From: Maribacter halichondriae
GTDB lineage: Bacteria; Bacteroidota; Bacteroidia; Flavobacteriales; Flavobacteriaceae
Direction: 5' to 3'
NCBI RefSeq assembly: GCF_027474825.1
Contig: NZ_CP107030.1
Span: forward strand, 558,001 to 622,000
DNA: 64,000 nt
Shown here: positions 28,505 through 64,000 of the stretch, piece after piece
How the letters are laid out: the number at the start of each line of letters is the position of its first letter
Position numbering within the stretch: the stretch's first letter is position 1
The notes under the pieces: generated by a model
Told to the model about the DNA's origin: nothing
What the model saw: only the letters and a program-made list of their open reading frames with translations
Database searches by the model: none
Program-made: the position numbers and the translations under genes

Positions 28505-29371
28505 TTACAAACTCTTCAAATAATCAATACTACCCTTCAACGTCCCAGGGTTCGACTCCATTTCTACATAGACCACTTGTAACCCTCCGGTATCGGCGGC
28601 GGCAAAGAAGTCTTTCCAATCAGATATACCTGAGCCCAAGGCGATTTCCTTTGGATTCTCCATAGCATCATAATCCTGCATGTGGGTGGATATAAAACGA
28701 CCGGGAAATTTTTTAAAGTAATCCGACCCTTTGTATCCCAGCACGATAACCTGGGTCTGGAACTGCATTTTTACCAAGTTTGGATCCAGTTCCTCTAAAA
28801 TGATATCGTATTCTAGTTTGTCATCAAATTTCGTTTTGAATTCTATGTCATGATTGTGGAAGGCAGCCACCATGCCGGCCTTTTTGACTTTTTCTCCAAT
28901 AGTGTTCAACTTCGCACACTTTTCCTTTAGTTCATCTAGAGTTTCGGAATGTAGCCCTCCTGAAGCTACAAAATGTTCAAGTCCCATTTGATTGGCCCAA
29001 TCGATGCGTTCTTCGAGGTTCTCGTTCATTTCGTTCCAAGTAAGATGGCTACTATTACATTTCATGCCACAATCTTCGATGATTTTTTTAAGTTCCGTTC
29101 CAGAATATTTTACGAGTGGCTCAAAAGGTCCTTTGTATCCTGAAGGGGAGCACATTTCAACATATTCATAGCCCATTCCGGCCATTTTCTTGAGTGTGCC
29201 GGTGATATCTTTTCCGATTTCTTCACGAAGAACATATGATTGAAAGCCGATGGGCTGGGTTACCATTCCTGCCGCTAAAGTATTCGCAAATAATGCGTTT
29301 CCATAGGGCGAAAGCAGTCCGAAGGAAGTTGCCCCAAGGGCACTTTTGGTCAAAAATTGTCTTCTTTTCAT
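28505..29371 (-). CDS. Sugar phosphate isomerase/epimerase (TIM barrel), exported
   Basis: 288 residues with a twin-arginine-like signal (MKRRQFLTKSALGATSFG). The AP_endonuc_2/TIM-barrel fold is indicated by CSPSGYKGPFEPL, CGMKCNSSHLTWNEM, FHNHDIEFK and THMQDYD, which supply metal-binding His and Glu/Asp residues. Family members isomerise inosose, hexulose or keto-sugars. It clusters with an oxidoreductase, an inositol oxygenase and a symporter, so a role in sugar or inositol use is likely but not proven. Confidence 0.85.
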   Translation of the reverse strand: MKRRQFLTKSALGATSFGLLSPYGNALFANTLAAGMVTQPIGFQSYVLREEIGKDITGTLKKMAGMGYEYVEMCSPSGYKGPFEPLVKYSGTELKKIIEDCGMKCNSSHLTWNEMNENLEERIDWANQMGLEHFVASGGLHSETLDELKEKCAKLNTIGEKVKKAGMVAAFHNHDIEFKTKFDDKLEYDIILEELDPNLVKMQFQTQVIVLGYKGSDYFKKFPGRFISTHMQDYDAMENPKEIALGSGISDWKDFFAAADTGGLQVVYVEMESNPGTLKGSIDYLKSL

Positions 29372-29439
29372 CTTCTCATGTATTTATTCCTAATCAATGT
29401 ATGAAATTTTTGCTTATTCCAATCATTTGGAATTTTGAA

Positions 29440-30357
29440 TTAATTATTTGCACGAATGAATTCAATCATTGATGCCCTGTAGGTGCTTGAATTGTCAAAC
29501 GAAATATTCCTCCAAAGTTCCGCATGATTCAAATCAGGGACATAAACTACGTTGTAGTCCTTAAAATCGCTTTCCATTAACCGTTTTTCAAAAAGCCTTG
29601 TATACCTATCAAGTGCATTATCTGAAATCAATAACATCGGAATACCTAAATTTTCAAGATAATTCGTTGGCGAGGCGTTTATAAAATCTTCTTTTGAATC
29701 TCCAAAAACCGCTTCTACATGGAGTTCGGCCAGTTCCTGTCTATCGCCAGTTTCAAAGACCTCATGGTAGTTTACGACATCGTAAGTTCCGGATATGGGA
29801 ATCATCCCTTTGATAACATCTTTTGAAAGGCCCTCATTTTTAAGGTACGATTCGTCTAAACCGATCAATGCTGCAAGATGTGCACCCGAAGAAAAACCGC
29901 CAATAAAAATCTTCTCTTTATCATATCCATTTTCCGATGCGTGCTCGTAAAGCCATTTGACCGCAGCGGCCAAATCTTTGATATGCTCAGGATGCTTCAC
30001 TCCCTTATCCAAAATCGAATCCCGCCATTTGGCAGCACTTAATCTGTGACCTATACTTGCAACCGCGATTCCCTCCTCGGCAAATTTTCTTGCCAGGTCC
30101 ATTTCCACATTTCTATCGACATAGGACCATGCTCCACCACCAATCCAAACCAATAAAGGATAATCCGTGTCTGTCTTAGGAAGGACCAAGTTTAGTCGTT
30201 GAATCGTATCGATGGATTTTCCTTCGAGATAGTCAATGTTTTTTAGCTCGATAAACTCAAATTTGTTTTTGGTCTGACCAAAACAGCAACTAGCGACCAC
30301 ACAAAAAATCGAAATATAGAAAGTAAGTCTTTGCAGATTACATCGAAACATTATCAT
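29440..30357 (-). CDS. Secreted alpha/beta hydrolase (esterase/lipase type)
   Basis: 305 residues with a hydrophobic signal ending in CCFGQ, possibly lipid-anchored. The alpha/beta-hydrolase core shows the oxyanion-hole stretch WIGGGAW, the nucleophile elbow GGFSSGAHLAAL, and the acid and base near DNALDRY and DLNHAELW. It resembles the BD-FAE group that removes acyl groups from sugars. A TATATTTG box with an overlapping 14-base palindrome lies directly upstream (30364-30382). It is divergent from the oxidoreductase gene. Confidence 0.85.
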   Translation of the reverse strand: MIMFRCNLQRLTFYISIFCVVASCCFGQTKNKFEFIELKNIDYLEGKSIDTIQRLNLVLPKTDTDYPLLVWIGGGAWSYVDRNVEMDLARKFAEEGIAVASIGHRLSAAKWRDSILDKGVKHPEHIKDLAAAVKWLYEHASENGYDKEKIFIGGFSSGAHLAALIGLDESYLKNEGLSKDVIKGMIPISGTYDVVNYHEVFETGDRQELAELHVEAVFGDSKEDFINASPTNYLENLGIPMLLISDNALDRYTRLFEKRLMESDFKDYNVVYVPDLNHAELWRNISFDNSSTYRASMIEFIRANN

Positions 30358-30363
30358 ATGAAG

Positions 30364-30382
30364 TTGTTTGCAAACAAATATA
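30364..30382 (-). promoter_or_regulatory. Promoter -7 box with overlapping palindromic operator
   Basis: TATATTTG on the minus strand (30375-30382) overlaps by three bases the perfect palindrome TTGTTTGCAAACAA (30364-30377). A repressor bound there would block the hydrolase promoter. It lies in the 148-base divergent region between the hydrolase and the Gfo/Idh/MocA gene. Confidence 0.5.
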
Positions 30383-30505
30383 TGGTTTTCGATACATTGA
30401 TTTCACATAGCGTTGACAATGAATACGTTAAAAGCATGCTAAAAGATTAACGTTCTTTAAAAACTTCCTTTAAATTGAATCTTATCAACTTTTTAATCCA
30501 AAATC

Positions 30506-31633
30506 ATGAAAAATAATTCAAGACGCTCTTTTATAAGGAATTTGGGTTTGGGAGTTGGTTCTGCCGCACTGTTACCTTCATTTACATCTCTCGAACAAGC
30601 CGATAGTGAAAATAGAAAACTCTATCAAGGAAAAAAGTTGAATATTGCACTTTGTGGTCTCGGTCGCTATGCGAACATTTTAGCGCAGAGTTTTGTGGAT
30701 TCAGAGTATTGTCATCTTTCGGGAATTATTACCGGCACTCCAGCAAAGGCCGTAGATTGGAAAGGACGCTATTCAATTCCTGATGAGAACGTCTATAATT
30801 ATGAAAATTTTGATAGCATAAAAGATAATCCAAATATTGATTTGGTCTATGTGGTGTTACCCAATGGAATGCACAAGGATTATACCATTCGGGCGGCCAA
30901 AGCCGGCAAGCACGTTATCGTAGAAAAACCCATGGCATTTACCGAAAAAGACTGTCAAGAAATGATAAACGCTTGCAACGCAGCTAGAGTTCAACTTGCT
31001 GTGGGTTATCGGTTACATTACGAACCAAATCATATGGAAATCATGCGATTTGGGCAGGAAAAAGTATTCGGACAGGTACGTTTAATCGAAGTCTCACTTG
31101 GATACAATATAAGCGGAATAGGCCCAAACGATTGGCATTTAAAAAAGGCCCTGTCAGGTGGTGGCCCTTTGATGAACCTCGGAGTGTATTGTGTTCAGGC
31201 CAGTCGATATACTTTGGGAGAAGAACCGATTTCGGTAACGGCTCAATTTGGCCCTATTACCAGACCTAATATTTACAAAGAAGTTGAAGAATCGATTACT
31301 TGGCAATTGAACTTTCCTAGCGGTGCTGTAGCAACTTCCACGAGTTCCAATAATAGCAGCGTGGATCGATTTTTCGCTTCCGCGGAAAGGGGTTTTTTCG
31401 AATTAAGCCCAGCGGTTAGCTATGGTCCGTTCAAGGGAAGATCAAGTGAGGGTGCGTTCGACTTCCCGGTCATCAATCAACAAGCTGCACAAATGGATGG
31501 CATCGCAAAGGAAATTCTTGAAGGCCGCAATCTTCCTGAACATATTTCAGGCGTTGAGGGCCGTAAGGATATGAAGGTTATAGAAGCTATTTACAAGGCA
31601 GCCGAAAGTGGTAATGAAGTTATTTTGTCTTAA
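30506..31633 (+). CDS. Gfo/Idh/MocA family oxidoreductase, exported
   Basis: 375 residues with a twin-arginine-type signal (SRRSFIRNLGLGVGSAALLP). The NAD(P)-binding fold begins LNIALCGLGRYAN, the catalytic Lys lies in IVEKPMAF, and GGGPLMNLGVYCV follows in the C-terminal domain. Members oxidise or epimerise sugars, inositols and amino sugars. A twin-arginine signal is usual for Bacteroidota members that use a tightly bound cofactor outside the cytoplasm. It converges with the inositol oxygenase gene. Confidence 0.9.
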   Translation: MKNNSRRSFIRNLGLGVGSAALLPSFTSLEQADSENRKLYQGKKLNIALCGLGRYANILAQSFVDSEYCHLSGIITGTPAKAVDWKGRYSIPDENVYNYENFDSIKDNPNIDLVYVVLPNGMHKDYTIRAAKAGKHVIVEKPMAFTEKDCQEMINACNAARVQLAVGYRLHYEPNHMEIMRFGQEKVFGQVRLIEVSLGYNISGIGPNDWHLKKALSGGGPLMNLGVYCVQASRYTLGEEPISVTAQFGPITRPNIYKEVEESITWQLNFPSGAVATSTSSNNSSVDRFFASAERGFFELSPAVSYGPFKGRSSEGAFDFPVINQQAAQMDGIAKEILEGRNLPEHISGVEGRKDMKVIEAIYKAAESGNEVILS

Positions 31634-31642
31634 GCGAAGAAG

Positions 31643-32452
31643 CTACCAAAAAATCGGTCCTTTTCCCAAATACTTTTCCGCGATTGGCTGGTAGTAACCG
31701 CGAACATCCTCCAAATCATAAATCTTTTGACTTTTCGTGTAAAGGTCATATTTGTTGAAGTCTTTAATAAGCTCTAAATATTCTTGATCTTTTTCATTCA
31801 ACAATTCGGAATAGGCGCCTCCCGAATGCCAGGGATAAAAAGAATGGTAGCGAATCATGACCATCGCCTCTTCGGGTAGTTTATTTTCTTCATGGTTGCT
31901 CAACACTTGATATAAATATTCATCGTGGCCCCAAGCCAATTCAACATTATCGATTCCACAGCCCTTTTCATAGATACCTATTGAAGTTTTATAGCGCTCA
32001 TCTTGCATATCAGGATTCGTTTCATTGAACTCCGGATAGACACATGAATCGGGCAAGGCGCAACCGACCACAAAAACATCGCCAACCATACCCCACTGTT
32101 CGGCCTGACTGGTACCGTCTTCATCACTACCCCATAGAAACATGATTTTACCCAAGTCGTGAATGAGCCCGGTTAATTGCATCCAGTCGGGGCGGCCTTC
32201 GGCTCGTAAGGCCTCTGCGCTTTGTATCAAATGCTGCACATTCGGAAGATCTAAATCTGGATCGCTGACATCGATAAGACGATTCAGATGCCCCATAGCT
32301 TCCCAAAGGTCCATTGGCTTATCAAAAGTCAGGTATTTTTTGTGCATACGCTTCACGTAATCATAGGTTTGATTCTTGCGCATTTTACGATAATGCTCTT
32401 TGACGGCTACCGAGACATCGGGAGCTTCGTAGTTTCTAAATGTTTTTTCCAT
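31643..32452 (-). CDS. Inositol oxygenase (MIOX) family protein
   Basis: 269 residues. The family cleaves myo-inositol with O2 at a di-iron site to give D-glucuronate. All six expected metal ligands can be placed: His74 (NVQHLIQSAEAL), His98 and Asp99 (GLIHDLGK), His176 (AWGHDEYLY), His203 (RYHSFYPWH) and Asp231 (LIKDFNKYD). The protein is cytoplasmic with no signal peptide. A symporter gene ends 67 bases upstream and probably imports the substrate. MIOX is best known from eukaryotes but occurs in some Bacteroidota. Enzyme activity is inferred, not shown. Confidence 0.92.
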   Translation of the reverse strand: MEKTFRNYEAPDVSVAVKEHYRKMRKNQTYDYVKRMHKKYLTFDKPMDLWEAMGHLNRLIDVSDPDLDLPNVQHLIQSAEALRAEGRPDWMQLTGLIHDLGKIMFLWGSDEDGTSQAEQWGMVGDVFVVGCALPDSCVYPEFNETNPDMQDERYKTSIGIYEKGCGIDNVELAWGHDEYLYQVLSNHEENKLPEEAMVMIRYHSFYPWHSGGAYSELLNEKDQEYLELIKDFNKYDLYTKSQKIYDLEDVRGYYQPIAEKYLGKGPIFW

Positions 32453-32494
32453 AATTAAAGTTCAAGTACAAGCGTAAGTTCAAATTCAATGTCC

Positions 32495-32520
32495 AACCTC
32501 TAACTCCTAACTCCTAAACT
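32495..32520. repeat. Short heptamer repeat 3' of the symporter gene
   Basis: Two exact CTAACTC units and a variant (32500-32520) run up to and into the symporter stop codon. On the coding strand they read GAGTTAG. Confidence 0.5.
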
Positions 32521-34117
32521 ACACATTTCCTAATACAAGGTACAAAATAACTGTAAATACGATCAAAAAGAGGCTGAAGGGTTTTGCATATTTCCAAGGT
32601 TTTAGGTCAAGAACCCCGGCATCTTTCATTTCAAATTTCTCCTCCTTTGGCAATAAGAACGAGGCCAAATGCATGATCAGTATGTTCAGTACAAATTCCA
32701 ATCCCCATATATGTACAAAATGAAGGTTGACTTCGAAAACAAAATTCATAATAACGTAAAAGAAAAGACCGAATACCAATCCGACTTTTGCGCCTGAGGA
32801 TGTCACTTTTGGAAAAAGGAAACCTGCAATGATTACACTGGCTATTGGGATAAAAAAGATACCGTTCAACTCCTGTAACAGTTGGTACAAGCCTTCAGGT
32901 GCGTTCGCTACAAAAGGCGCGATCGAAATGGCGAATATTGCCAAGATGGCAGAAGTCCACTTTCCCATTTCCACCAATTTAGTTTCGCTGGCATCTTTTT
33001 GAATGTACCTTTTGAAAATTCCTAAACTGAAGACGGTGGCCGCACTGTTAAGGGCACTATTAAAAGTACTCAAAATGGCACCCATCATCACCGCCACAAA
33101 AAAACCGGTCAACCAGAGGGGCAGCACTTTTTTGACCAATAAGGGATATACCGTATCTGGGTTGTCATACAAACTTTCCCCAAAATAGTAGAATCCGATG
33201 AGGCCGGGGAGCACAATGATCAAAGGGACAAGAATTTTCAACAGCCCCGTGAAAAGTAACCCTTTTTGGGCCTCCTTAAGGTTTACGGCTCCGAGTACCC
33301 GTTGTATGATAGACTGGTGCATCGTCCAAAAATAAATTTGGTTGACCATCAGGCCCGTAAACAAAACTTCAAAAGGCAGAATTGCAGTGCGCGCACCTTC
33401 CCCTACTCCCGATTCCTTGCTGACCACATTAAATTTTTCGGGACTGTTGTCAAAGACCATCCCCATGCCCTGAAAAAGATTGCCATCGCCAATGCTCAAT
33501 AACGCCAAAATGGGGACCAGCAACCCGGCCACTAGAAGACCGAATCCGTTTATGGTATCGGTATAAGCTACCATTTTCAGCCCTCCGAAGATGGCGTAAA
33601 CGGCGCCGATACAACCTACAACCAAAATCGTGATCCAAATACCTTCTTTTTGACTTACGTTCAAAAGTTCTGAAATTTCAAAAATCGCCTCGATATTGAG
33701 TGCTCCGGTATACAAAACGATGGGCAACAAAGTTGCCACAAACGAAATAATCAAAAGCAAAGCCACCAAGGTTCGGGTAAGTCCGTCAAATCTCTTTTCA
33801 AGGAATTCGGGAATAGTAGTAAGGCCCATTTTAAGATACCGAGGCGCAAAATATAGGGCACCCAAGACCAAAGCGAGGGCCGAGGTAACTTCCCAAGCTA
33901 CGATTATCGCTCCGTTACGATAGGCCGAGCCGTTCATGCCCACCAAATGTTCGGTTGAAATATTGGTCAACAATAACGATCCCGCGATTACGATTCCCGT
34001 GAGCGATCTTCCTCCTAGAAAATAACCGTCACGAGAATTTAATTTATCTCGACGGAGTTTATAAGTGGCATAAAATGCGACAAATCCTGTGAATAATAGA
34101 AATGTAAAAAGAGCCAT
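32519..34117 (-). CDS. Sodium:solute symporter (SSS), candidate inositol/sugar importer
   Basis: 532 residues with about 14 membrane segments. SSS hallmarks include LLLTNISTEHLVGMNG in TM1 and GAILSTFNSALNSAATVFSL near the family signature. It belongs to the SGLT-like branch that carries sugars or inositols with Na+. The inositol oxygenase gene directly downstream on the same strand makes myo-inositol a good guess for the substrate. Confidence 0.9.
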   Translation of the reverse strand: MALFTFLLFTGFVAFYATYKLRRDKLNSRDGYFLGGRSLTGIVIAGSLLLTNISTEHLVGMNGSAYRNGAIIVAWEVTSALALVLGALYFAPRYLKMGLTTIPEFLEKRFDGLTRTLVALLLIISFVATLLPIVLYTGALNIEAIFEISELLNVSQKEGIWITILVVGCIGAVYAIFGGLKMVAYTDTINGFGLLVAGLLVPILALLSIGDGNLFQGMGMVFDNSPEKFNVVSKESGVGEGARTAILPFEVLFTGLMVNQIYFWTMHQSIIQRVLGAVNLKEAQKGLLFTGLLKILVPLIIVLPGLIGFYYFGESLYDNPDTVYPLLVKKVLPLWLTGFFVAVMMGAILSTFNSALNSAATVFSLGIFKRYIQKDASETKLVEMGKWTSAILAIFAISIAPFVANAPEGLYQLLQELNGIFFIPIASVIIAGFLFPKVTSSGAKVGLVFGLFFYVIMNFVFEVNLHFVHIWGLEFVLNILIMHLASFLLPKEEKFEMKDAGVLDLKPWKYAKPFSLFLIVFTVILYLVLGNV

Positions 34118-46803: not shown

Positions 46804-48987
46804 TTGTGGTTCCCTACTCTTACTTTTTCTTTTTTATCCTTTTCGCAAACAGAGAACAAATCGTTTAACGTCAAGCTGATTTCAGAAACTGTTCAATTAG
46901 ACGGCGCCCTTGACGAACCTTTTTGGGAAAACGCCGATGGCCCGCACGATTTTCAACAGTATTTTCCCTCCGATAGTATTCTTGCCAAGAACCAGACCGA
47001 TATTAAAATGGTGTATGACAACACCACTCTTTATATAGGCGTTACGGTCAAATCAATAGGTGACGATTGGGTTATTCCTTCGCTTAGAAGGGACTTTAGA
47101 GCCAGTGGTAATGATAATGTAAACCTAGTATTCGACACATTCAATGACGGCACGAATGCCTTCATGTTCGGCATTAATCCGTATGGGGTTCAGCGCGAAG
47201 TACTCATTTCTGGTGGTGGTTTAGATTTACGGGGATTCAATACCGCTTGGGATGTGAAATGGAAGGGGGAATCAAAGCGATATAAAGGATATTATACCGC
47301 TGAACTTGCCATACCGTTGACCTCATTCAAGTTTAAAGAAGGCGAGACCAAATGGCGGTTTCAATGTTACCGATTCGACATGCAAAGTAATGAGCGAAGT
47401 GTTTGGTTCAATGTGCCACAAAATCAACTGGTAATTAGTCTGGCATTCATGGGAGATATGTATTTCGAAAAACCTTTGGGAAAATCGAGAACACCAATTG
47501 CTCTGATTCCTTACATCAACGCAATTTCTGAAAAAGATTTTGAAACTGACATCGGCGATAACCGATTAAAAGTAGGTGGTGACGCGAAAGTATCAATAGG
47601 CAATGGAATGAATTTGGATGTGACCCTTAATCCTGATTTTTCCAATGTCGAGGTCGATGATATCATTACCAATTTGACCCGTTTTGAAATTGGGCTTCCC
47701 GAGCGAAGACAATTTTTTACTGATAATAGCGACCTGTTCGGAAGTTTTGGTGGAAGCCGAGATGCCAACCCATTCTTCTCCAGACGTATTGGTATTGCAA
47801 GAGACACGGCCGACAATTCCATAGAAAATCGAATTATTGGAGGCGTACGCCTAAGTGGAAAACTAAACGAAGATTGGAGGCTTGGTTTTCTAAATATACA
47901 AACAGACGAAGACATTGAAAATGAAATCGCTTCGAACAACAATATGATGTTCGCCCTACAAAAAAAGGTCTTCTCGCGCTCCAATATTAGCATGTTCCTT
48001 ATTAATAAACAGTCTTTTAAAGACTATGATTTTATTGAAAGGGAAGACGAATATAACCGCGTAGTAGGAATGGACTACAATCTGGCCAGTAAAGACAATA
48101 GCTGGTTCGGCAAGTTCTACCTGCATAAGTCTTTTCAACCTGATGACAAGAAAGGAAATTTCTCTTCAGGTGCTTTTCTAGGACGTAATTCTAGGTATTT
48201 CAACTTTTTTCATGACATGGCCTATATCGATGAAGAATTTCAATCCGATCTGGGTTTCGTACCAAGAACCGATATTTTCAAAACGGCCACCTCGGCCGAA
48301 GTAGTCTTTTGGCCGAAAAGTAATATTATCAACAACTACAGCTTTGAACTATTTCCGATTCTAACATGGCGGCCAGGACTTGATTTCAAGCAAACAGACC
48401 ATGATATTATGCTCAATTGGAATGTGAACCTACAAGATCAATCCATGGGCGGTATAGGCTTTACCAATTCCTTTATTTTTCTTACCGACCCGTTCGACCC
48501 CACCAATACAGACGGTGCCGTAGAACTTCCTGGAAATCAAGGGTATCATTTTAATAGTATTACCGCAGCTTACGAATCGAATCGAGCCAATGTTTTTGCC
48601 TTTGAGGCCGAAACCTCGGTAGGCCGTTTTTTTAATGGCAATCGTTTTTCATTTATGGGAGAGTTCAATTTACGCTTACAACCCAAAGCATTGATCAGCC
48701 TTGCATTGAACTACGATCAACTACGGCAACCTGCGCCTTACGCGAGTGCCGACTTATGGTTGGTCAGCCCTAGGTTCGAGTTTACCTTTAGCAAATCACT
48801 TTTTTGGACGACCATTTTACAGTACAGTAATCAACGTGACAACTTAGGTATCAACTCACGATTGCAATGGCGATTTGCCCCGTTATCCGATTTGTTCATC
48901 GTATACAATGACAATTACTTTGTAAATACCTTTGTACCGAGATATCGCTCCATAAACTTGAAATTCACCTACTGGCTGAATATTTGA
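46804..48987 (+). CDS. DUF5916/CBM9-type outer-membrane protein, first of tandem pair (signal peptide frameshifted)
   Basis: 727 residues in the open frame. A carbohydrate-binding family-9-like domain (SETVQLDGALDEPFWENA, MVYDNTTLYIGVTV) is followed by a DUF5916 beta-barrel-like region ending in SINLKFTYWLNI, which looks like an outer-membrane strand. The frame can only start with TTG at 46804. The ATG at 46790 gives MPKFFCGSLLLLFLF, and one more T in the six-T run at 46830-46835 joins it to the signal end LSFSQ. The true start is probably 46790. It is homologous to the next gene over its whole length. Function unknown. Confidence 0.85.
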   Translation: MWFPTLTFSFLSFSQTENKSFNVKLISETVQLDGALDEPFWENADGPHDFQQYFPSDSILAKNQTDIKMVYDNTTLYIGVTVKSIGDDWVIPSLRRDFRASGNDNVNLVFDTFNDGTNAFMFGINPYGVQREVLISGGGLDLRGFNTAWDVKWKGESKRYKGYYTAELAIPLTSFKFKEGETKWRFQCYRFDMQSNERSVWFNVPQNQLVISLAFMGDMYFEKPLGKSRTPIALIPYINAISEKDFETDIGDNRLKVGGDAKVSIGNGMNLDVTLNPDFSNVEVDDIITNLTRFEIGLPERRQFFTDNSDLFGSFGGSRDANPFFSRRIGIARDTADNSIENRIIGGVRLSGKLNEDWRLGFLNIQTDEDIENEIASNNNMMFALQKKVFSRSNISMFLINKQSFKDYDFIEREDEYNRVVGMDYNLASKDNSWFGKFYLHKSFQPDDKKGNFSSGAFLGRNSRYFNFFHDMAYIDEEFQSDLGFVPRTDIFKTATSAEVVFWPKSNIINNYSFELFPILTWRPGLDFKQTDHDIMLNWNVNLQDQSMGGIGFTNSFIFLTDPFDPTNTDGAVELPGNQGYHFNSITAAYESNRANVFAFEAETSVGRFFNGNRFSFMGEFNLRLQPKALISLALNYDQLRQPAPYASADLWLVSPRFEFTFSKSLFWTTILQYSNQRDNLGINSRLQWRFAPLSDLFIVYNDNYFVNTFVPRYRSINLKFTYWLNI

Positions 48988-49085: not shown

Positions 49086-51286
49086 ATGACAAAATTATTT
49101 TGGGGTATTGTATGCATATTAGCTACCTCAGCTTTATTTGGTCAAACCCAACCACGATCGTTTACCGTAAAGTTCATTTCAGAGCCCATTGTTGCGGATG
49201 GAATTTTAGACGAACCCATTTGGCAAACCGCCGAAAGTGCCAACGACTACTGGCAGTATTTTCCAACAGATTCTGTCCGGGCCGGACAGCAGTCCGAAGT
49301 CAAGATATTATATGACGACAAAAACATTTATATTGGTGTAAAGGCGAATTCCGTCGGGCAAAATTATGCATTGACATCCTTAAAAGGGATTTTAGGGGAG
49401 CGGGCAACGACAGTTTCTCGGTCATGTTCGATACCTATAGCGATGGACAAAATGCTTTTCTATTTGGCATCAACCCCTATGGTGTGCGTCGAGAGGGATT
49501 AGTTTCCGGTGGCGGGAACGATCGTATGCGAGACTACAGTTTGTCATGGGACGTGAAATGGAAAGGCGACGCCAAAATGTACGAAGATCATTTTACAGCC
49601 GAGATGGTCATTCCGTTAACATCATTAAAGTTTAAGGAGGGCGCTACCAAATGGCGATTCAACAGTTATCGCATCGATACACAATCGAATGAGCGCAGCT
49701 CATGGGCTAGAATTCCTCAAAACCAACTTATTTTCAGTACCGCTTTCATGGGCGATATGGTCTTTGAAAAGCCCTTGGGGAAATCGCGGACGCCTTTGGC
49801 GATCATCCCCTACATCAATGCGCTGTCCCAAAAGGATTTTGAAATAGACGAAGGCCTGAACAATTTAAAGGTCGGTGGTGATGCCAAGGTTTCTATCGGC
49901 AACAATTTGAATTTGGATGTAACCATAAATCCCGATTTTTCGCAGGTAGAGGTCGATGATCAAGTGACCAACCTTACTCGATTTGAGGTTTCGCTTCCTG
50001 AAAAAAGGCAATTTTTCATTGATAACAGTGATCTCTTTACAAGTTTTGGTGATCAGCGAGATGCCAACCCGTTCTTCTCAAGGCGCATTGGTATTGCAGT
50101 CGATACGGCCGATAATTCCATCGAAAATAAAATTATTGGTGGTATCCGGCTTAGCGGTAAACTGACAAAAAATCTTAGGGTCGGTCTTTTGAATCTACAG
50201 ACCGCAAAAGATGAGGCCAACGAGATTCCGTCGAACAACAATACCATGTTGGCCTTTCAACAAAGGGTCTTTTCAAGGTCTAACTTTGGTATGTTCTTTA
50301 TCAACACACAATCCTTTGAAAAAAATGATTTTTTGGATAGGGAGGAAGAATACAATCGCGTATTCGGATTTGATTATAACCTAGCCTCCAAAGATAACAT
50401 ATGGACAGGAAAGGCATACCTCCATAAATCATTTCAGCCAGACGATAGTGAGGGAAACATTTCGACCGGGGGAACACTAAGGTATCAAACAAGAAAATTC
50501 AACCTTTTTCTAAAAGGTGTCTCGATTGACGAAGATTTTTCTTCCGATCTGGGATTTATTCGGCGAACCGATATTTTCAAGGGGTTCGTTAGTGCTGAAC
50601 GGGTTTTTTGGCCCAAGCAAGGCATATTGCAAAATCACAGCTTCCGATTCTCACCGGTCTTTATTTGGAGCCCCAGTTTGGATTTTAAAAATACCGACTA
50701 TGATTTCAGAACCAGTTGGGAGGCACAATTCAAGGACCAGTCACAATTTAATCTTGGCATGACCAATAGCTACACCTTTCTATTTGACCCATTTGATCCG
50801 ACCAATACAGACGGGGCCGTAGAATTGCCCGGTGACCAAGGGTATCATTATAATAGTGTTGAATTTGAATATACCTCCGATTTGAGAAAACGTTTTTCAT
50901 ACAATTTGGGATCCGAGATCGGCCGATTTTACAATGGAAATCGTTTTTCTGTAGAAAGTATGATGACCTTACGGTTTCAACCCAAGGTATTTCTTTCGTT
51001 GATATTGAACTATGACCAGATAAGTTTGCCCGACCCCTACCCGAGTGCCAATATTTGGTTGATAAGCCCAAAAATCGATATTACGTTCAGCAAATCGGTC
51101 TTTTGGTCCACCTTGATCCAGTACAGCAACCAACGTGACAACCTCGGTTTCAATTCGCGCTTGCAATGGCGATTTGCACCCCTGTCCGATCTGTTTATCG
51201 TGTACAACGATAATTACTTCGTGAACAGCTTCGCGCCCCGGTTTCGTTCAATAAATCTCAAATTTACCTACTGGTTGAATCTCTGA
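49086..51286 (+). pseudogene. DUF5916/CBM9-type outer-membrane protein, second of tandem pair, one frameshift
   Basis: The first frame from the ATG at 49086 has a signal peptide (MTKLFWGIVCILATSALFGQ) and the CBM9-like domain (SEPIVADGILDEPIW). It leaves the family sequence after ALTSLKG. The second frame resumes at MFDTYSDGQNAFLFGINPYG and runs to 51286. Restoring a fifth A at 49382-49385 gives LKRDFRGAGND, matching LRRDFRASGND of the paralogue. The intact protein would be about 734 residues, ending SINLKFTYWLNL. The duplication with 98 bases between suggests a tandem copy. Confidence 0.87.
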
Positions 51287-56502: not shown

Positions 56503-59500
56503 TTAGTTCAAATAGAGATGCCCTGAAAGTTTTTTAGAAGACCCGTCGGTATCCGTATATTCAAAAAGATAAAAATACGTTCCTGTAGGCAGTTTATTTT
56601 CCTTACCTCCAACTGGCCTTACCTGCGAAGTACCATCAAAATAGTTACCCAATGTGTTATATGATTCGGTATAGTAAATTAGAATTCCCCAGCGGGTGTA
56701 AATTCGGAGTTTATTTTCCGGCCGTACCTCTAGACCGGTAATGGTCAGTATGTCATGTACACCATCGCCGTTCGGGGTGACCACGTTGAATACCTCTACC
56801 TCATCGATTTCAATCGGTAGGTCGCTATCTAAATAATCGGGTGTACCATCACCATCAAAATCATCGTTGGCGTAATTGCCATCTTGATCCATATCCTCAT
56901 CGATCGTATCTATTCCATCATCATCATCGTCCGTATCCCTATAATCGGACTCATCGTCTCCATCAGTATTCGGAAGGTCATTAATAGGATTGTCAATTTC
57001 ATCGTTCACGTCGATATCTATTTGTTCGGCACCTTCATAACCATCGTTCAAACCGTCATCGTCTTTATCCGAGCCGATAAATGTCACATCAGCAACGCCG
57101 TCATGATTAAAATCATGACCCTCAATGTTGTCAGGTACATTATCATTGTCACTATCGGAATCCAAATAATCAGGTAAATCGGTACCATCGGTATTCACGG
57201 GAATGATACCGATATTGCCATTGGCCTCATATGCATCATCAAGGCCGTTTGCGTTTCCATCGGTTCCACTTGGTGGAATATATCCAGAAGTTGCTTGTGC
57301 CTCAACATTGTCAGGAATACCGTCATCATCGCTGTCGATATCCAAATAATCGGGATAACTATCGCCATCCGAATCGGTTGGATTCGTAGAAGGATCATTA
57401 TCACCATCAGCATTCAAATCCTCAAAACTATCCAAGATACCATCATCATCGGCGTCTATATCCAAGGGGGTATCGTCAGTTGCATCCCTAAAATCAACAT
57501 CTCCCCCTGTGTTGGCATCATTGTCTATATCCGGAAGAATTACCGTACCTGATAACGGATTATCAATTGTTCCTCCAACATCAGTGTAATCGGGAGTGGC
57601 GTCTGTGGCATCGTCAAGGCCATCATTGTCAGTATCGTTTCCGGAAAGTGTAATCGCTGCTTCCGCAGTGTCATCGGCCCCTTCGTTATCTGAATCGATA
57701 TCCAAATAATCGGGATTATCGACTCCATCGGTATTCGTAGGAACCAAACCGGCGGTATAAGATGTGTCAACTCCATTGGCATCTATACTCCCTGAAGGGG
57801 CAACGTAACCTATTGTCGTTTGCGCTTCAACATTGTCAGGAATACCATCACCATCGGCATCTAAATCGAGAATATCATCAACCCCGTCGGCGTCGGAATC
57901 CAACATCACATAATTTACCGTCTCCCCGTCTGGGTCGTTCTGCACGGCATCAGGTACACCGTCTGTGCCGACTGTTCCATTTACGACTCCATTTGTATGA
58001 GGTTGACCATGACCGACCTCAACGGCATCGAAAATTCCATCATTATCACTATCCAAGTCAAAGGCGTCGATAACCCCGTCGTTGTCAGTATCCATACAAG
58101 ATGAAGGATTCGTGACGGTAACACTAACAAAATCGATATTTGCACCTGAATGGAAACTTGGCCCAGGGGCATCGGAAGTCAATCGCACCGTAGTTTGTTC
58201 TGTGGTCGCAACGAAAGTACTCTCATAGTAAAACCAGGTATTTGGACCGCGAACACCAGCTATGGGACCTTGAGCCAGAGTGGTTTGACTATCATTAAAA
58301 ATCGTGGCACTTGAACTATCGATGACATCTATTTGTAAATCAACCGTGGTGCCTGATAAGTGACCATAATCCTCCCCCCAATACAGTGAAAGGGTGTAGG
58401 TATTTCCGGGTACTGTATTGATTTCCTGACTGAATTCGTTCATTACGCCACCTGACCTTGTTGCATTTCCGATCAGATCCATGTACTGTCTACCATGAAA
58501 TGCCGGGGCCCAAGTACCTCCGTCAACCCAAGCATCCATATTTTGGGTGTAATCCCAAGCTGAAATTTGGTCTGTGTTCAAATCTGCTCCAATATAGGCC
58601 CCATTATCACCTGCATTGGCATACGTTGCGGTATTGGTAAAATCGTCTCTTTCAAAAGAAGCGTTCAGTATCAGATTGCCACAACCTTCATCGGTATCTA
58701 AAATACCATCATTGTCATCGTCCAAATCGACGATATCGGGCATTCCATCGTTATCATTATCGGGGCGATCGTCCGATGCATCCCTAAAATCGACATCGCC
58801 TCCAGTGGATGCATCATTATCTTCATCAGGTAGCATAATCGGGGCGTTTAGTGGATCGTCAATAATTCCACCTGGATCCGAATAGCCACTTAAATCATTG
58901 TCCGACCTATCATCTAAACCGTCATTATCAATGTCGGCACCGGCAATCCATTTTAAGGCTTCCTCCAAATCGGTTCGGGAATCATTATCGGAATCGGTAT
59001 CCATGTAATCAGGATTATCAGACCCGTCGGTATTAGTGGGGGTTATTCCTGCAGCATAGGCCAAATCAACTCCGTTTGCATCTACGGTGCCGTTAGGTGC
59101 TATATAACCAATCGTTGTTTGTGCTTCCACATTATCAGGAATTCCATCACCATCGGAGTCTAAATCGCCAAAGTCTGACATGCCGTCTGCATCATCTGAA
59201 CTTTCTGAAACGGTATAATTAACAATTCCGTTATCAGGGTCTGCCTGTACGGCATCGGGTACACCGTCAGCACCTACACTTCCATTTACTCTTCCGTTAG
59301 TTTGTGACTGCCCATGACCTGCTTCCACAGCGTCATAAATTCCATCGTTGTCGGTATCCAAATCTATCGGATTAGGATAGCCGTCCTTATCACTGTCCAA
59401 TACATAAATCTCAGGATTTATATAATTCGTAGTACAGCGAAAATCAAGATTATGTTCTCTTCCGGAGGCCGCTACGGCAGGTATGATAGTGGTAATACCA

Positions 59501-62500
59501 GCCCTGAAACGAATCTCGGATCGGTTTTCATAATTTATACCAAAATTGGCCTGTGGATTGGTATTGCCTGCTCCTGTGTACTCCGTCGTTCCACCCGTGG
59601 CTACGATCCAAGGAAACTCATAGGAAATCGATAAATCCGTTGGATTAGATACTATATAATTCGTCGGATTCTCTACATAGATTTCCTCACTATAGTCTAC
59701 ATTGCCATCAGTATCATTGATGTTTATAAAGAATTTCGGAACCGTTACCGGAGTCGTACCTCCAGAATTCACGAACTGCATACGATATTCAATATACCCT
59801 TCCTTACCTACATTCGAAATATCAAACGCCGTTCGCGGCCTAAAGGCCTGTGCTTCTGAAGTATTATTATCTATGTCTGCCACGGAAGCATTGAACGTCT
59901 CTACAATAGTCACCAAGGCATCGGTACCCGATGTTATATTCGAAAATCTGTAGACTGCCCCCTGCTGTAATGCGGTGCCGGACTCAAGCGACGATGGAGT
60001 ACTAAAATCGAGAATGGTCTCACCAGTACAATCTGGTTGCGTGTTTCCTACAATAACGTTTAGTTCTTCGGAATCCAAAAGGCCGTCGTTATCGTCATCA
60101 AGATCTATGGCATCAACAATGCCGTCAGTATCGGTATCCAATCGGTCATCCTGTGCGTCCCTGAAATCGACATCGCCACCTGAATTGGCATCTTTATCCG
60201 TGTCCAATAGAATTATCGCTCCTGAAAGTGGATCATCTATTGTACCACCAACATCGGAATAATCTGCTGTTGCGTCAGTGGAGTCATCTAGGCCGTCATT
60301 ATCAGCATCTGAATTTAACAAAGTAATCTGTGCTTCTAAAGTATCGTTTCCTCCCTCGTTATCGGAATCCAGATCCAAATAATCAGGGGCATCTGCACCA
60401 TCGGTATTTGTTGGGTTTATTCCTGAAGGATAAGCAGTATCGAAACCGTTGGCATTTACCGTACCGCTTGGGGCGATATAACCAATGGTTGTTTGTGCTT
60501 CCACATTGTCGGGAAGGCCATCTCCATCGGCGTCGAGATCCAAAAAGTCAAATAGCGTATCGGTGTCATCTGTACTTTCTGCTACGGTATAATTAACCAA
60601 TCTATCATTTGGATCAACCTGCACAACATCCGGTATACCGTCAGTGCCTACTGAACCGTTAACCCTACCATTGGTTTGAGGCTGTGCATGGCCAGCTTCA
60701 GCAGCGTCAAATATGCCATCATTATCAGCGTCTAGATCAAGATAGTTAAATACTCCATCTAAATCGGTATCTAAATTTTCGCAAGTGGAAAAGCGAATAG
60801 TGAAATCATCCCATACCGAAAAATCCGCTGCATTATCATCAATATGGCCATAAACATAGGTTCGAATGGTGTAGGTGGTATTCTCATCTAATTTGATAAA
60901 TTCATCTCTACTTTGAGTTAAACGATCTCCTGGTAACAAATCAGTATAACTACTATTCACATCAATATCAATGGAAAGAATATCATAAGAAGTAAAACCA
61001 TCACTAGAAATCAGGGTCGCGATTTGGTAAGAATCACCTACAGTAGGTTCGAACCAACCCGTGGCCAATTCTGTGATTACCGGTTGCATCAAGTTAGTGC
61101 CTGTAGTAAACGAGACTTCAACATAGTCATTCGCAGCAAAGGCCTCACTGAAATTATTAGCATTTATATTTCTTAATTCTACTTGTTGTGCTGGAGTACT
61201 TGCAGTAATTCCACTAAATGAGATATCAGTATTGGTAACAACCAACCAATCCGTTATGCTAGGGTTTTGCACAAAATCTAAACTTAAATTTCCTGGTGGT
61301 GTATTCAGGGTCCATGAAATATAATCGTCATCAATACACTCAGCACCTTCATCCGTATTCAAGATTCCATCATTATCAATATCATAATCCAAAAAGTCAA
61401 CAATACCATCACCGTCGGTATCAGGTCGATCTTCTATATCATCCCTAAAATCGACGTCACCGCCCGAGGAAGCGTCGCTATCCAAATCGGGAAGTATTAC
61501 GGGTGCGGTCAATGGGTAATCTATGGTACCTCCAACATCCGAATAATTCCCTGTCGCATCGGTTGCGTCGTCAAGACCGTCGTTATCGGTGTCATTACCT
61601 GAAAGTGTTATTGCGGCTTCAATCGTATCATTGGCCCCTTCGTTGTCCGAATCTGTATCCAAATAATCTGGGTTATCCGTGCTATCTGTATTTGTGGGTA
61701 CGATTCCCGAGGGATATGCTGGATCTACTCCAAAGGTATCCACCGATCCACTTGGCAAAAGATAGCCTATCGTGGTTTGCGCCTCCACCTGGTCAGGAAT
61801 GCCGTCACCGTCAGAATCCAAATCTAAAAAGTTATGGATGGTATCGGAATCATCGGCGCTCTCACCGACAGAATAGTTAACCATCCCATCATTTGGATTC
61901 GCCTGAACCAAATCGGGAATGCCATCGCTACCAACTGCACCGCTAACAATACCATTGGTATGTGCCTGTCCGTGGCCAGACTCTACCGCGTCCAACATCC
62001 CATCATTGTCACTGTCCAAATCAAAAATATTGATGACGCCATCGGCATCAGTATCCAAACTGCAAAATACGGGTTGGGTGAATCTTGTAGAAGAGTCTGT
62101 AGGGTATTCAAAACTAAGGACAATACGACTCACTTGCCCTTCAAAATAAAACAGAATGGATCCAATAGGGTCATCGGCAGGGTCATCACCGTCAGAGTCT
62201 ACGGCGTCTGCCACGAATAGATTTCCCGTTTGGGTTATTATAGAACCTACTTGCGTAACACCTTCTGTTGTAAGGTCGTAAAGCACATTATTTTCATCAT
62301 AGACATCAATGGTGCAACGTGTATTATTGTCGAAGTCTGTCATCTTAAAGCTGACCTTCGCTATCGGAATACTAAAGGTCGAAGTCAAACTACCTGACTG
62401 ACCAGCATCGCCACGCAGTCTTATGGATGGGCCATTCAGACCGGCATCATATCCAAAAATCTCAACGTTATCAGGATTATTCAATGTATAGGTCAAATCT

Positions 62501-63948
62501 GTACCGTCTATCGAATAGGTATCATCAACAACATTATTTCCTATTCCTATCGTACCAGAGATGTTAGAATCCCTGCACCCATCGATACTATCGGGAATCC
62601 CGTCGTTATCGTCATCAAAATCTACCCGATCTCCAATTCCATCCATATCATTGTCTGTGGCCAAACCTAATGTAAAGGAACCTCTATAACTAATTGTGTG
62701 GGCGTCAACGGAAATATAATAGGTATTACCGGCTATAAGGCCGGGTACTCTAAGGTTTACATCTTGGTTGGGAAAGGCGTAGATTGCACTGGTGACCTCA
62801 GTAACCCCGTCACCCTCCCAAAGCGCTATCAACGTTCTTGTCTGGCTTCCCTTGGCGCCCCCAATATCAACTGTTATGTTCACTTGATTGGTTGCTGGGG
62901 CAACAAAGTAGAACCATCGATTTGCACGCGGTCCACCAACACCCCAAGCACTACCTGGGTTTAAATCTGGTGAAGCACCCAAAGTATTGTAAGCCGCATC
63001 GGCGGAAGAAGTATTTATTAGACCGGTAACATCAACTGCCCCTTCATACATATCGTAATCAACCTGATCTTGAAGACAAAGCGTAAAAGAACCTTGTCCC
63101 GCATAGGAATCCACTGAAATATAATAGGTAGAACCGGGAGTCAAGCCCAAATAGTTCGCATCTACGTGAGATCCTGCAGAGTCGAACCTATCACTGGCAA
63201 GTTCTGTAACGCCATCGGCTTCCCAAAGTGCCAACTGCGTAAAGCGTTGTGTACCCAAAGGATCACCGGCACCCCCGCCCCTTCTAACAATGACTCGAAT
63301 CTCCCCCGAAAGAGGGGCATCGAATCGAAACCATCGATTATGTCTGGGGCCACCAGCAGACCATTCACTGGCGCTGTTTCGGTCCGCCGAAGCACCGTAC
63401 GAATTATATGCGGCATTCGCGGAACATCCGTTTATAAAACCTGTAATATCCAAGGCCCCTTCGTAAAAGTCATAATCCATTACATCCTCCAAACACAGAG
63501 CAAAAGTACCGGTGGTAGATGAACCATGACTATCTACTGAAATATAATACGTGCTTCCAGGCGTAAGACCAACATGACCTATATTGACATTGTCATATTG
63601 TGTATACCAATTTTCGCTTCGTATTTCAGTTAGTCCGTCAGCTTCCCAAAGTGCAATCTGTGCGTATCGAATTGCACTTGGGGAGGTACTTCTACGAAGT
63701 CTAATATTAATTTGTCCATTGGCAGGTGCCACAAAACTGAACCACACGTTATTATCTACCACCCCACCGTTCCATTCACTTCCTGCATTGCCATCACCTG
63801 TAGAGTTTACGGTCGTATAGGCGTCATCAGCCGAACAAGAATTGATTAAGGAGGAAATATCAATGGAATTAACGAAATCATCGTTCGCAGGTTGGGCAAA
63901 AGATAGTTGGGCACAACTTAGCAAAGCAATGAAAAGTAACATTTTCAT
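56503..63948 (-). CDS. Giant TSP3-repeat surface protein with type IX sorting domain
   Basis: About 2481 residues from the ATG at 63948 (MKMLLFIALLSCAQLSFAQ); the frame is open on past 63993. Order of parts: signal peptide; three similar beta-domains of about 140 residues, each with a GLTPGSTYYISVDSH-like strand; then Asp-rich thrombospondin type 3 units (DSDNDGIPD-like, calcium-binding) arranged in four large repeats; between them three unrelated inserts, one resembling DUF642 (GNLILNASFERDDF); and a C-terminal domain (FNVVTPNGDGVHDILTITGL ... GTYFYLFEYTD) of the gliding-motility type. It is expected to be exported by type IX secretion and attached to the cell surface. The function may be adhesion, but this is inference. 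Confidence 0.92.
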   Translation of the reverse strand: MKMLLFIALLSCAQLSFAQPANDDFVNSIDISSLINSCSADDAYTTVNSTGDGNAGSEWNGGVVDNNVWFSFVAPANGQINIRLRRSTSPSAIRYAQIALWEADGLTEIRSENWYTQYDNVNIGHVGLTPGSTYYISVDSHGSSTTGTFALCLEDVMDYDFYEGALDITGFINGCSANAAYNSYGASADRNSASEWSAGGPRHNRWFRFDAPLSGEIRVIVRRGGGAGDPLGTQRFTQLALWEADGVTELASDRFDSAGSHVDANYLGLTPGSTYYISVDSYAGQGSFTLCLQDQVDYDMYEGAVDVTGLINTSSADAAYNTLGASPDLNPGSAWGVGGPRANRWFYFVAPATNQVNITVDIGGAKGSQTRTLIALWEGDGVTEVTSAIYAFPNQDVNLRVPGLIAGNTYYISVDAHTISYRGSFTLGLATDNDMDGIGDRVDFDDDNDGIPDSIDGCRDSNISGTIGIGNNVVDDTYSIDGTDLTYTLNNPDNVEIFGYDAGLNGPSIRLRGDAGQSGSLTSTFSIPIAKVSFKMTDFDNNTRCTIDVYDENNVLYDLTTEGVTQVGSIITQTGNLFVADAVDSDGDDPADDPIGSILFYFEGQVSRIVLSFEYPTDSSTRFTQPVFCSLDTDADGVINIFDLDSDNDGMLDAVESGHGQAHTNGIVSGAVGSDGIPDLVQANPNDGMVNYSVGESADDSDTIHNFLDLDSDGDGIPDQVEAQTTIGYLLPSGSVDTFGVDPAYPSGIVPTNTDSTDNPDYLDTDSDNEGANDTIEAAITLSGNDTDNDGLDDATDATGNYSDVGGTIDYPLTAPVILPDLDSDASSGGDVDFRDDIEDRPDTDGDGIVDFLDYDIDNDGILNTDEGAECIDDDYISWTLNTPPGNLSLDFVQNPSITDWLVVTNTDISFSGITASTPAQQVELRNINANNFSEAFAANDYVEVSFTTGTNLMQPVITELATGWFEPTVGDSYQIATLISSDGFTSYDILSIDIDVNSSYTDLLPGDRLTQSRDEFIKLDENTTYTIRTYVYGHIDDNAADFSVWDDFTIRFSTCENLDTDLDGVFNYLDLDADNDGIFDAAEAGHAQPQTNGRVNGSVGTDGIPDVVQVDPNDRLVNYTVAESTDDTDTLFDFLDLDADGDGLPDNVEAQTTIGYIAPSGTVNANGFDTAYPSGINPTNTDGADAPDYLDLDSDNEGGNDTLEAQITLLNSDADNDGLDDSTDATADYSDVGGTIDDPLSGAIILLDTDKDANSGGDVDFRDAQDDRLDTDTDGIVDAIDLDDDNDGLLDSEELNVIVGNTQPDCTGETILDFSTPSSLESGTALQQGAVYRFSNITSGTDALVTIVETFNASVADIDNNTSEAQAFRPRTAFDISNVGKEGYIEYRMQFVNSGGTTPVTVPKFFININDTDGNVDYSEEIYVENPTNYIVSNPTDLSISYEFPWIVATGGTTEYTGAGNTNPQANFGINYENRSEIRFRAGITTIIPAVAASGREHNLDFRCTTNYINPEIYVLDSDKDGYPNPIDLDTDNDGIYDAVEAGHGQSQTNGRVNGSVGADGVPDAVQADPDNGIVNYTVSESSDDADGMSDFGDLDSDGDGIPDNVEAQTTIGYIAPNGTVDANGVDLAYAAGITPTNTDGSDNPDYMDTDSDNDSRTDLEEALKWIAGADIDNDGLDDRSDNDLSGYSDPGGIIDDPLNAPIMLPDEDNDASTGGDVDFRDASDDRPDNDNDGMPDIVDLDDDNDGILDTDEGCGNLILNASFERDDFTNTATYANAGDNGAYIGADLNTDQISAWDYTQNMDAWVDGGTWAPAFHGRQYMDLIGNATRSGGVMNEFSQEINTVPGNTYTLSLYWGEDYGHLSGTTVDLQIDVIDSSSATIFNDSQTTLAQGPIAGVRGPNTWFYYESTFVATTEQTTVRLTSDAPGPSFHSGANIDFVSVTVTNPSSCMDTDNDGVIDAFDLDSDNDGIFDAVEVGHGQPHTNGVVNGTVGTDGVPDAVQNDPDGETVNYVMLDSDADGVDDILDLDADGDGIPDNVEAQTTIGYVAPSGSIDANGVDTSYTAGLVPTNTDGVDNPDYLDIDSDNEGADDTAEAAITLSGNDTDNDGLDDATDATPDYTDVGGTIDNPLSGTVILPDIDNDANTGGDVDFRDATDDTPLDIDADDDGILDSFEDLNADGDNDPSTNPTDSDGDSYPDYLDIDSDDDGIPDNVEAQATSGYIPPSGTDGNANGLDDAYEANGNIGIIPVNTDGTDLPDYLDSDSDNDNVPDNIEGHDFNHDGVADVTFIGSDKDDDGLNDGYEGAEQIDIDVNDEIDNPINDLPNTDGDDESDYRDTDDDDDGIDTIDEDMDQDGNYANDDFDGDGTPDYLDSDLPIEIDEVEVFNVVTPNGDGVHDILTITGLEVRPENKLRIYTRWGILIYYTESYNTLGNYFDGTSQVRPVGGKENKLPTGTYFYLFEYTDTDGSSKKLSGHLYLN
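57470..62020 (-). repeat. Four long internal repeats of the giant gene
   Basis: Copies of about 590-610 bp lie at roughly 61430-62020, 60145-60745, 58765-59375 and 57470-58065. Each codes for about 200 residues, with shared landmarks AVExGHGQ, DGVPDxVQ, VEAQTTIGY and GGDVDFRD. They are separated by 0.69-0.77 kb of non-repeated sequence. The copies have diverged at many positions. Confidence 0.85.
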
Positions 63949-64000
63949 CGCTCCGGATAGAGGTTCGGTTTGGTTAGTTTTATTAGGGGGCATAGGCTTT

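Follow-up and report, generated by a model that had tools for sequence, protein, structure and literature searches.

A sodium:solute symporter and myo-inositol oxygenase gene pair, a probable inositol catabolic module, in Maribacter halichondriae and other Flavobacteriaceae

The DNA analysed here, hereafter the window, is a 64,000-nt stretch (positions 558,001 to 622,000 of NZ_CP107030.1) of the Maribacter halichondriae genome, a single contig of 4.53 Mb. At 28505-34117 of the window, the original prediction placed five open reading frames (ORFs) forming an inositol-oxygenase cluster, and all five were found. Two of them make up the pair with which this study is mainly concerned. The first gene (32519-34117, minus strand) encodes a sodium:solute symporter of the SSS family, of 532 amino acids, that matches PF00474 (SSF) with 190 bits and the NCBIfam model PRK10484.1 with 702 bits (cut-off 401). 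The second (31643-32452, minus strand) encodes a 269-amino-acid myo-inositol oxygenase (MIOX) of the type that we call clade B; its match to PF05153 has 328 bits (cut-off 25) and covers positions 3-245 of the 249 of this profile. Only 66 nt separate SSS from the downstream MIOX on the same strand, which bears out the predicted adjacency of the two genes.

The window MIOX aligns with mouse MIOX (2huo) at an E value of 6.5e-73, with 47.6% identity over 254 aligned residues. Its iron ligands H74, H98, D99, H176, H203 and D236 correspond to mouse H98, H123, D124, H194, H220 and D253, respectively, which we take to be the iron ligands of the mouse enzyme. When eight further positions presumed to belong to the active site or to contact the substrate are included, 14/14 residues are identical. 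All six metal ligands are kept, as originally predicted, and none of them varies in two alignments, one of 11 and one of 22 sequences. An AlphaFold model built from 22 sequences (mean predicted local distance difference test score, pLDDT, 86.8) retrieved 2huo with Foldseek at a template modelling (TM) score of 0.90, and the next family, PhnZ/TmpB, reached only 0.32-0.38. Therefore, the window protein is MIOX rather than another HD-domain oxygenase. It is a true member of the MIOX family, to which the enzyme of our own kidneys also belongs, and by homology it would convert myo-inositol to D-glucuronate.

A distinctive feature of clade-B MIOX, compared with the mouse protein and the aligned clade-A rows, is an insertion of eight residues. 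In the window protein it occupies residues 109-116. These come a little ahead of G124 and D125, the pair that contacts the substrate, and lie in one of the poorly predicted stretches of the model (block 111-120, pLDDT 59). The N-terminal extension of clade-A type is absent from the window protein. Could clade-B MIOX act mainly on a different cyclitol or polyol, for instance scyllo- or D-chiro-inositol, imported by SSS? The position of the insertion, the separation of clade B as a branch of its own and the greater distance of the window protein from mouse MIOX (249 bits, as against 308 for the single clade-A protein searched) would all agree with such a shift. However, it is hard to reconcile with an identical set of checked ligand and substrate residues, and we regard it as unlikely.

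Concerning the symporter, the closest solved sequences are those of Vibrio SGLT (vSGLT). Four of the eight positions that we take to form the vSGLT sugar site are kept in the window SSS (N64, E88, S91 and Q428). At position 294 the window protein has K and the solved, mutant vSGLT chain has A; wild-type vSGLT presumably carries K294. This pattern fits a sugar-like substrate and does not identify inositol. SSS is likely an inositol importer working with sodium, a substrate proposed only from its MIOX partner.

How constant is the association of these two genes? In a draw of 299 Flavobacteriaceae genomes, full-length MIOX was counted only at E values below 1e-90, and neighbourhoods of up to 20 kb (four of them shorter) were fetched around 45 other MIOX copies from the drawn genomes and one from a further congener. 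An SSS neighbour had to show at least 50% identity and lie on the same strand within 200 nt of MIOX. Trees were built from the family set and 32 of 106 loci outside it (L090-L195), the SSS tree in a quick version. By tree and identity, the family loci split into clade B (28 loci, the window counted) and clade A (19 loci), with a support of 100/100 for the separation. In clade B, SSS lies directly upstream of MIOX in 27 of the 28 family loci. The sole miss (L080) is a decayed locus with two TGA codons inside MIOX and SSS fragments upstream, too short to enter the MIOX tree. In clade A, 13/19 loci have an SSS neighbour, downstream of MIOX in 12 of the 13. The remaining clade-A loci comprise two with a different SSF protein directly upstream of MIOX (L050 and L053), one in which a Gfo gene lies between MIOX and an SSS at a distance of 1.2 kb (L039), one whose only SSS, 4.8 kb off, has 30% identity (L046) and two in which the identity test found no SSS in the fetched stretch (L051 and L054).

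Other combinations of MIOX with a transporter exist. One clade-B MIOX of the same family (L070) stands beside an SSS that groups with the clade-A partners, with 97 in the SH-like approximate likelihood ratio test (SH-aLRT) in the quick tree. Other SSS types, of 30-33% identity, accompany MIOX in L115, from the same class, and in Chitinophagaceae loci. In L181 (Verrucomicrobia) and L186 (Pirellula, Planctomycetes), MIOX is preceded by genes of a sugar-type ATP-binding cassette importer (Peripla_BP_4 and BPD_transp_2). The pairing of MIOX with an importer thus appears to have come about repeatedly, and this repetition is the strongest evidence for an uptake-coupled use of the enzyme. Also, the Lewinellaceae copies L125 and L127 fall within a Flavobacteriaceae branch both in the MIOX tree and in the quick SSS tree, which suggests that the two genes may have moved between families together. 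As a separate observation, SSS and MIOX of L113, a locus of the same class, are likewise placed inside a Flavobacteriaceae branch (for SSS in the quick tree).

How would the glucuronate produced by MIOX be used? The original prediction recommended searching for uronate genes elsewhere, and such genes were found at three other loci of the genome. The glucuronate isomerase UxaC (657 bits) is encoded at 2.515 Mb, with a short-chain dehydrogenase/reductase (SDR) gene upstream and, one gene away, DctP and DctM genes of the tripartite ATP-independent periplasmic (TRAP) type. The mannonate dehydratase UxuA (434 bits) is encoded at 0.280 Mb. Near 3.10 Mb lie genes for a GntR regulator, a PfkB kinase and an aldolase of 2-keto-3-deoxy-6-phosphogluconate (KDPG); the kinase matched only as generic PfkB, and it is its place beside the KDPG aldolase that makes it KdgK-like. 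The fructuronate reductase (UxuB) step has a candidate in the generic SDR near 2.509 Mb, upstream of UxaC, and L045 and L051 have SDRs 53% identical to it in the neighbourhood of MIOX and UxuA. As for the claim that the window holds no uronate pathway gene, it stands for UxaC, UxuA and KDPG aldolase, which lie outside; the other uronate enzymes were not searched with models in the window. Uronate genes adjoin MIOX in relatives, being present near it in 6 of the 19 clade-A loci (L042, L045, L047, L048, L051 and L052). In L045 and L047 only 9-11 nt separate MIOX from a UxuA gene upstream of it; near MIOX in L045 there are also UxaC, a UxuB-like SDR, UxaA and UxaB. In the M. halichondriae genome no classical iolD, the gene for trihydroxycyclohexanedione hydrolase, exceeded the cut-off (best score 247 bits, cut-off 715). 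A route from inositol through glucuronate to KDPG, with its genes elsewhere in the genome, is consequently well supported as a prediction from gene content.

Full-length MIOX is present in 44 of the 299 family genomes, in one of them broken, iolD above cut-off in 16, and one or the other in 59; a split iolD under the cut-off (G282) was not counted, and weak PF05153 matches in 77 further genomes (18.6-29.4 bits, partial model, three above cut-off) were left out. In a draw from the phylum, 29/395 genomes had MIOX at an E value of 1e-30. A scan of GTDB contigs confirmed at least 569 stretches as MIOX relatives, and 80 of these, taken as named loci, include Acidobacteria, Verrucomicrobia and a Pirellula; from the 80, five in which no MIOX ORF was called (L164, L171, L174, L175 and L192) and ten repeats were left out. 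Among 63 pattern matches in viral contigs, tblastn found no relative. The statement that MIOX is rare in bacteria was thus too strong, and uncommon is the better word. We also considered whether MIOX and iolD exclude each other, which the counts do not show (iolD in 1/44 MIOX-positive and 15/255 MIOX-negative genomes, p 0.48). The only family genome with both routes is that of L080 (G008:C3:86117-86866), in which a classical iolD lies about 22 kb from the broken MIOX and its fragmented SSS, on the same contig. It is possible that one inositol route has been replaced by the other in this genome.

Taken together, these results make it very probable that SSS and MIOX constitute a two-gene inositol catabolic module in which uptake by SSS is followed by oxidation by MIOX, the glucuronate being burnt through a route encoded elsewhere. 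According to this model, SSS would use sodium to bring in myo-inositol or a closely related cyclitol, and MIOX, a di-iron oxygenase whose function is assigned by homology, would cleave it with O2 to D-glucuronate. Glucuronate would then pass through UxaC, the fructuronate reductase (the candidate SDR), UxuA, the KdgK-like kinase and KDPG aldolase to give pyruvate and glyceraldehyde-3-phosphate. The genes for these steps are present in the genome; from them we infer the flux, as we do inositol as the SSS substrate, the sodium coupling and the regulation. Uptake and oxidation to glucuronate, as originally predicted, are supported by the conserved active site, the recurrent pairing, the uronate genes adjoining MIOX in relatives and the candidate route of the genome itself.

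Several points weigh against this model. First, the pair is not universal, since 21 of 35 further clade-B loci have SSS as the neighbour. The 14 others are ten from Spirosoma/Aquirufa-type Cytophagia (L147-L156, of which some lie on short contigs), L117 at a contig end, and L157-L159; upstream of MIOX, L159 has SSS at a distance of 2.7 kb and L157 a different SSF protein at about 0.8 kb. Second, three of the vSGLT sugar-site residues are changed in the window SSS (Q69H, N260Q and Y263F), so the sequence does not fix its substrate. Third, myo-inositol occurs commonly in plants and is what is left of phytate, and the genome has no beta-propeller phytase, other phytase families not having been searched; the source of inositol is therefore not shown. 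Fourth, although it speaks for the model that UxaC accompanies MIOX in the family (44/44 MIOX-positive genomes vs 71/255 MIOX-negative), xylose isomerase (XylA), taken as a control, does the same (43/44 vs 93/255), and the link between MIOX and UxaC is therefore partly one of saccharolytic lifestyle. Within XylA-positive genomes, UxaC is still found in 43/43 MIOX-positive and 61/93 MIOX-negative genomes (p 6e-7, a value that ignores kinship). The L-rhamnose isomerase RhaA (PF06134) was useless as a control, being found in 0/299 family genomes at an E value of 1e-30; rhamnose users in this family would need another isomerase. Finally, the uronate genes sought were found near MIOX in 0/28 clade-B family loci. 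This absence, together with the fact that 15 of these 28 loci have htpG no further than 8 kb downstream of MIOX, could be read as a sign that MIOX serves anabolism or stress, supplying glucuronate for a capsule or consuming inositol as an osmolyte, instead of supplying carbon. But the conserved partner of MIOX is an importer, the genome holds a candidate catabolic route and some clade-A relatives have uronate genes adjoining MIOX, so that a role of this kind appears highly improbable.

The inositol module proposed here is smaller than the one originally envisaged, which extended to three neighbouring genes: a Gfo/Idh/MocA oxidoreductase (30506-31633, plus strand; PF01408, GFO_IDH_MocA), an alpha/beta hydrolase of the BD-FAE type (29440-30357, minus strand; PF20434, 96 bits) and a xylose-isomerase-like TIM barrel (28505-29371, minus strand; PF01261, AP_endonuc_2, 42 bits). 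All three have N-termini of export type by eye, a signal sequence in the hydrolase and, in the other two, sequences resembling the motif that we take to mark twin-arginine translocation (Tat). Their presence beside MIOX is what led to the idea that an inositol glycoside or ester is processed outside the cytoplasm before uptake, as part of a five-gene pathway. Some relatives share part of this arrangement: L055 has both Gfo and the hydrolase close to MIOX, L073 has Gfo, and L124, outside the 28-locus set, has a TIM barrel and two ORFs resembling Gfo that may be a single split gene. Nevertheless, of the 28 clade-B family loci, with the window counted, 3 have Gfo near MIOX, 2 have the hydrolase and 1 has the TIM barrel, which leaves processing on the export side unsupported. 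In addition, Gfo and MIOX are transcribed towards each other, and the five genes therefore do not form one operon. The window Gfo falls far under the cut-off of the inositol 2-dehydrogenase (IolG) model TIGR04380 (85 bits, cut-off 355), as does the TIM barrel with the IolE model TIGR04379 (27 bits, cut-off 290), and similar Tat-type genes, recognised by eye and not by a scan, occur at other loci of the genome (L082 and L084). We thus hold the five-gene pathway to be very unlikely. The export-type neighbours exist as predicted; it is their role in an inositol system that found no support. Because htpG so often lies on the far side, the stretch from this housekeeping gene to the conserved pair is a gap of variable content, which the three genes occupy here: they are lineage-specific neighbours outside the SSS-MIOX unit. 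In two congeners (L002:2318-2716 and L075:10473-10877, both minus strand), the position of the window's Gfo gene is taken by a gene for a protein of about 130 amino acids, convergent with MIOX, and in L002 the Gfo gene comes after it.

Scans of the window for other elements gave little. No RNA reached the Rfam gathering scores, and predicted promoters (15 sites vs 13.7 in shuffles) and terminators (4 sites vs 6.6) showed no excess over shuffled sequence; statements on operons made here are for this reason not based on those scans. Away from the locus, the window contains two adjoining large proteins (46804-48987 and 49424-51286) whose C-termini are very similar by eye, apparently a tandem duplication, and a 2496-aa protein (56503-63993, minus strand) with many acidic repeats of DxDxDG type, also by eye.

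How does this pair compare with known systems? With the mammalian and fungal enzymes (mouse 2huo, human 2ibn), the window MIOX has in common the fold and the active-site residues, and it differs from mammalian MIOX in the insertion before the G-D substrate pair, in being encoded together with a symporter and in the presence of a bacterial uronate route in the same genome. The expression in yeast of FjMiox, the MIOX of Flavobacterium johnsoniae, reportedly goes back to Marques 2020. FjMiox, like the window protein a Flavobacteriaceae MIOX, gives glucaric acid in yeast supplied with inositol, according to the relevant passages of a review (PMC12076931). The closest precedent is the glucuronate operon of Francisella, which comprises an inositol oxygenase (F7308_1396), a sugar symporter, UxaC, UxuA, UxuB, KdgK and KdgA, and for which a path from inositol through glucuronate into the Entner-Doudoroff pathway was proposed; in the passages concerned, the authors saw at that time no bacterial homologue outside Francisella (PMC3479022). 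Both systems thus have a bacterial MIOX, a sugar symporter and genes of the glucuronate route. In Francisella, as described in those passages, these form part of a single cluster of nine ORFs, in which the symporter is a proton symporter of xylose type, whereas here an SSS-MIOX pair stands apart from the uronate genes (PMC3479022). The classical iol pathway also allows bacteria to use myo-inositol as a carbon source (PMC9430895, in the parts considered), but here there is no iolD above cut-off, and with MIOX the ring would be opened by an oxygenase that needs O2 and yields glucuronate.

A survey of 193,757 genomes published in 2022 took the presence of iol clusters as its criterion for inositol use and reported such clusters in 2% of Flavobacteriaceae species; in the portions of its text covered here, the word "oxygenase" appears once, for yeast (PMC9430895). 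In passages of a metatranscriptome study of Lake Michigan, inositol oxygenase is among the gene families with more transcripts nearshore (PMC13101498). From passages on vitamin C (PMC9602106) and on hexuronates (PMC6353982) nothing more was learnt about bacterial MIOX. In the literature searched, which did not extend to subscription papers, we found no account of an SSS-MIOX pair from Bacteroidota. A bacterial MIOX feeding a glucuronate route is, then, already published for Francisella; what is fresh is the two-gene SSS-MIOX arrangement and its frequency. We lean, with modest confidence, towards a broader view in which SSS-MIOX is a mobile, self-contained module, MIOX is a commoner inositol route than iol in Flavobacteriaceae, and surveys restricted to iol clusters undercount inositol use in Bacteroidota.

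If the proposed role of the pair is true, native bacterial MIOX-transporter pairs would be available for the production of glucuronate and glucarate, a field in which passages of the review cited above name low MIOX activity and stability as problems (PMC12076931). Overall, the picture is coherent, and the biology is well conserved and rather ordinary; what has been overlooked is its distribution, in a group believed to make little use of inositol. Inositol use in Flavobacteriaceae would be tied to oxygen, and the genomes of this family able to use inositol would be nearly four times as many as those counted by iolD only (59 vs 16 of 299).

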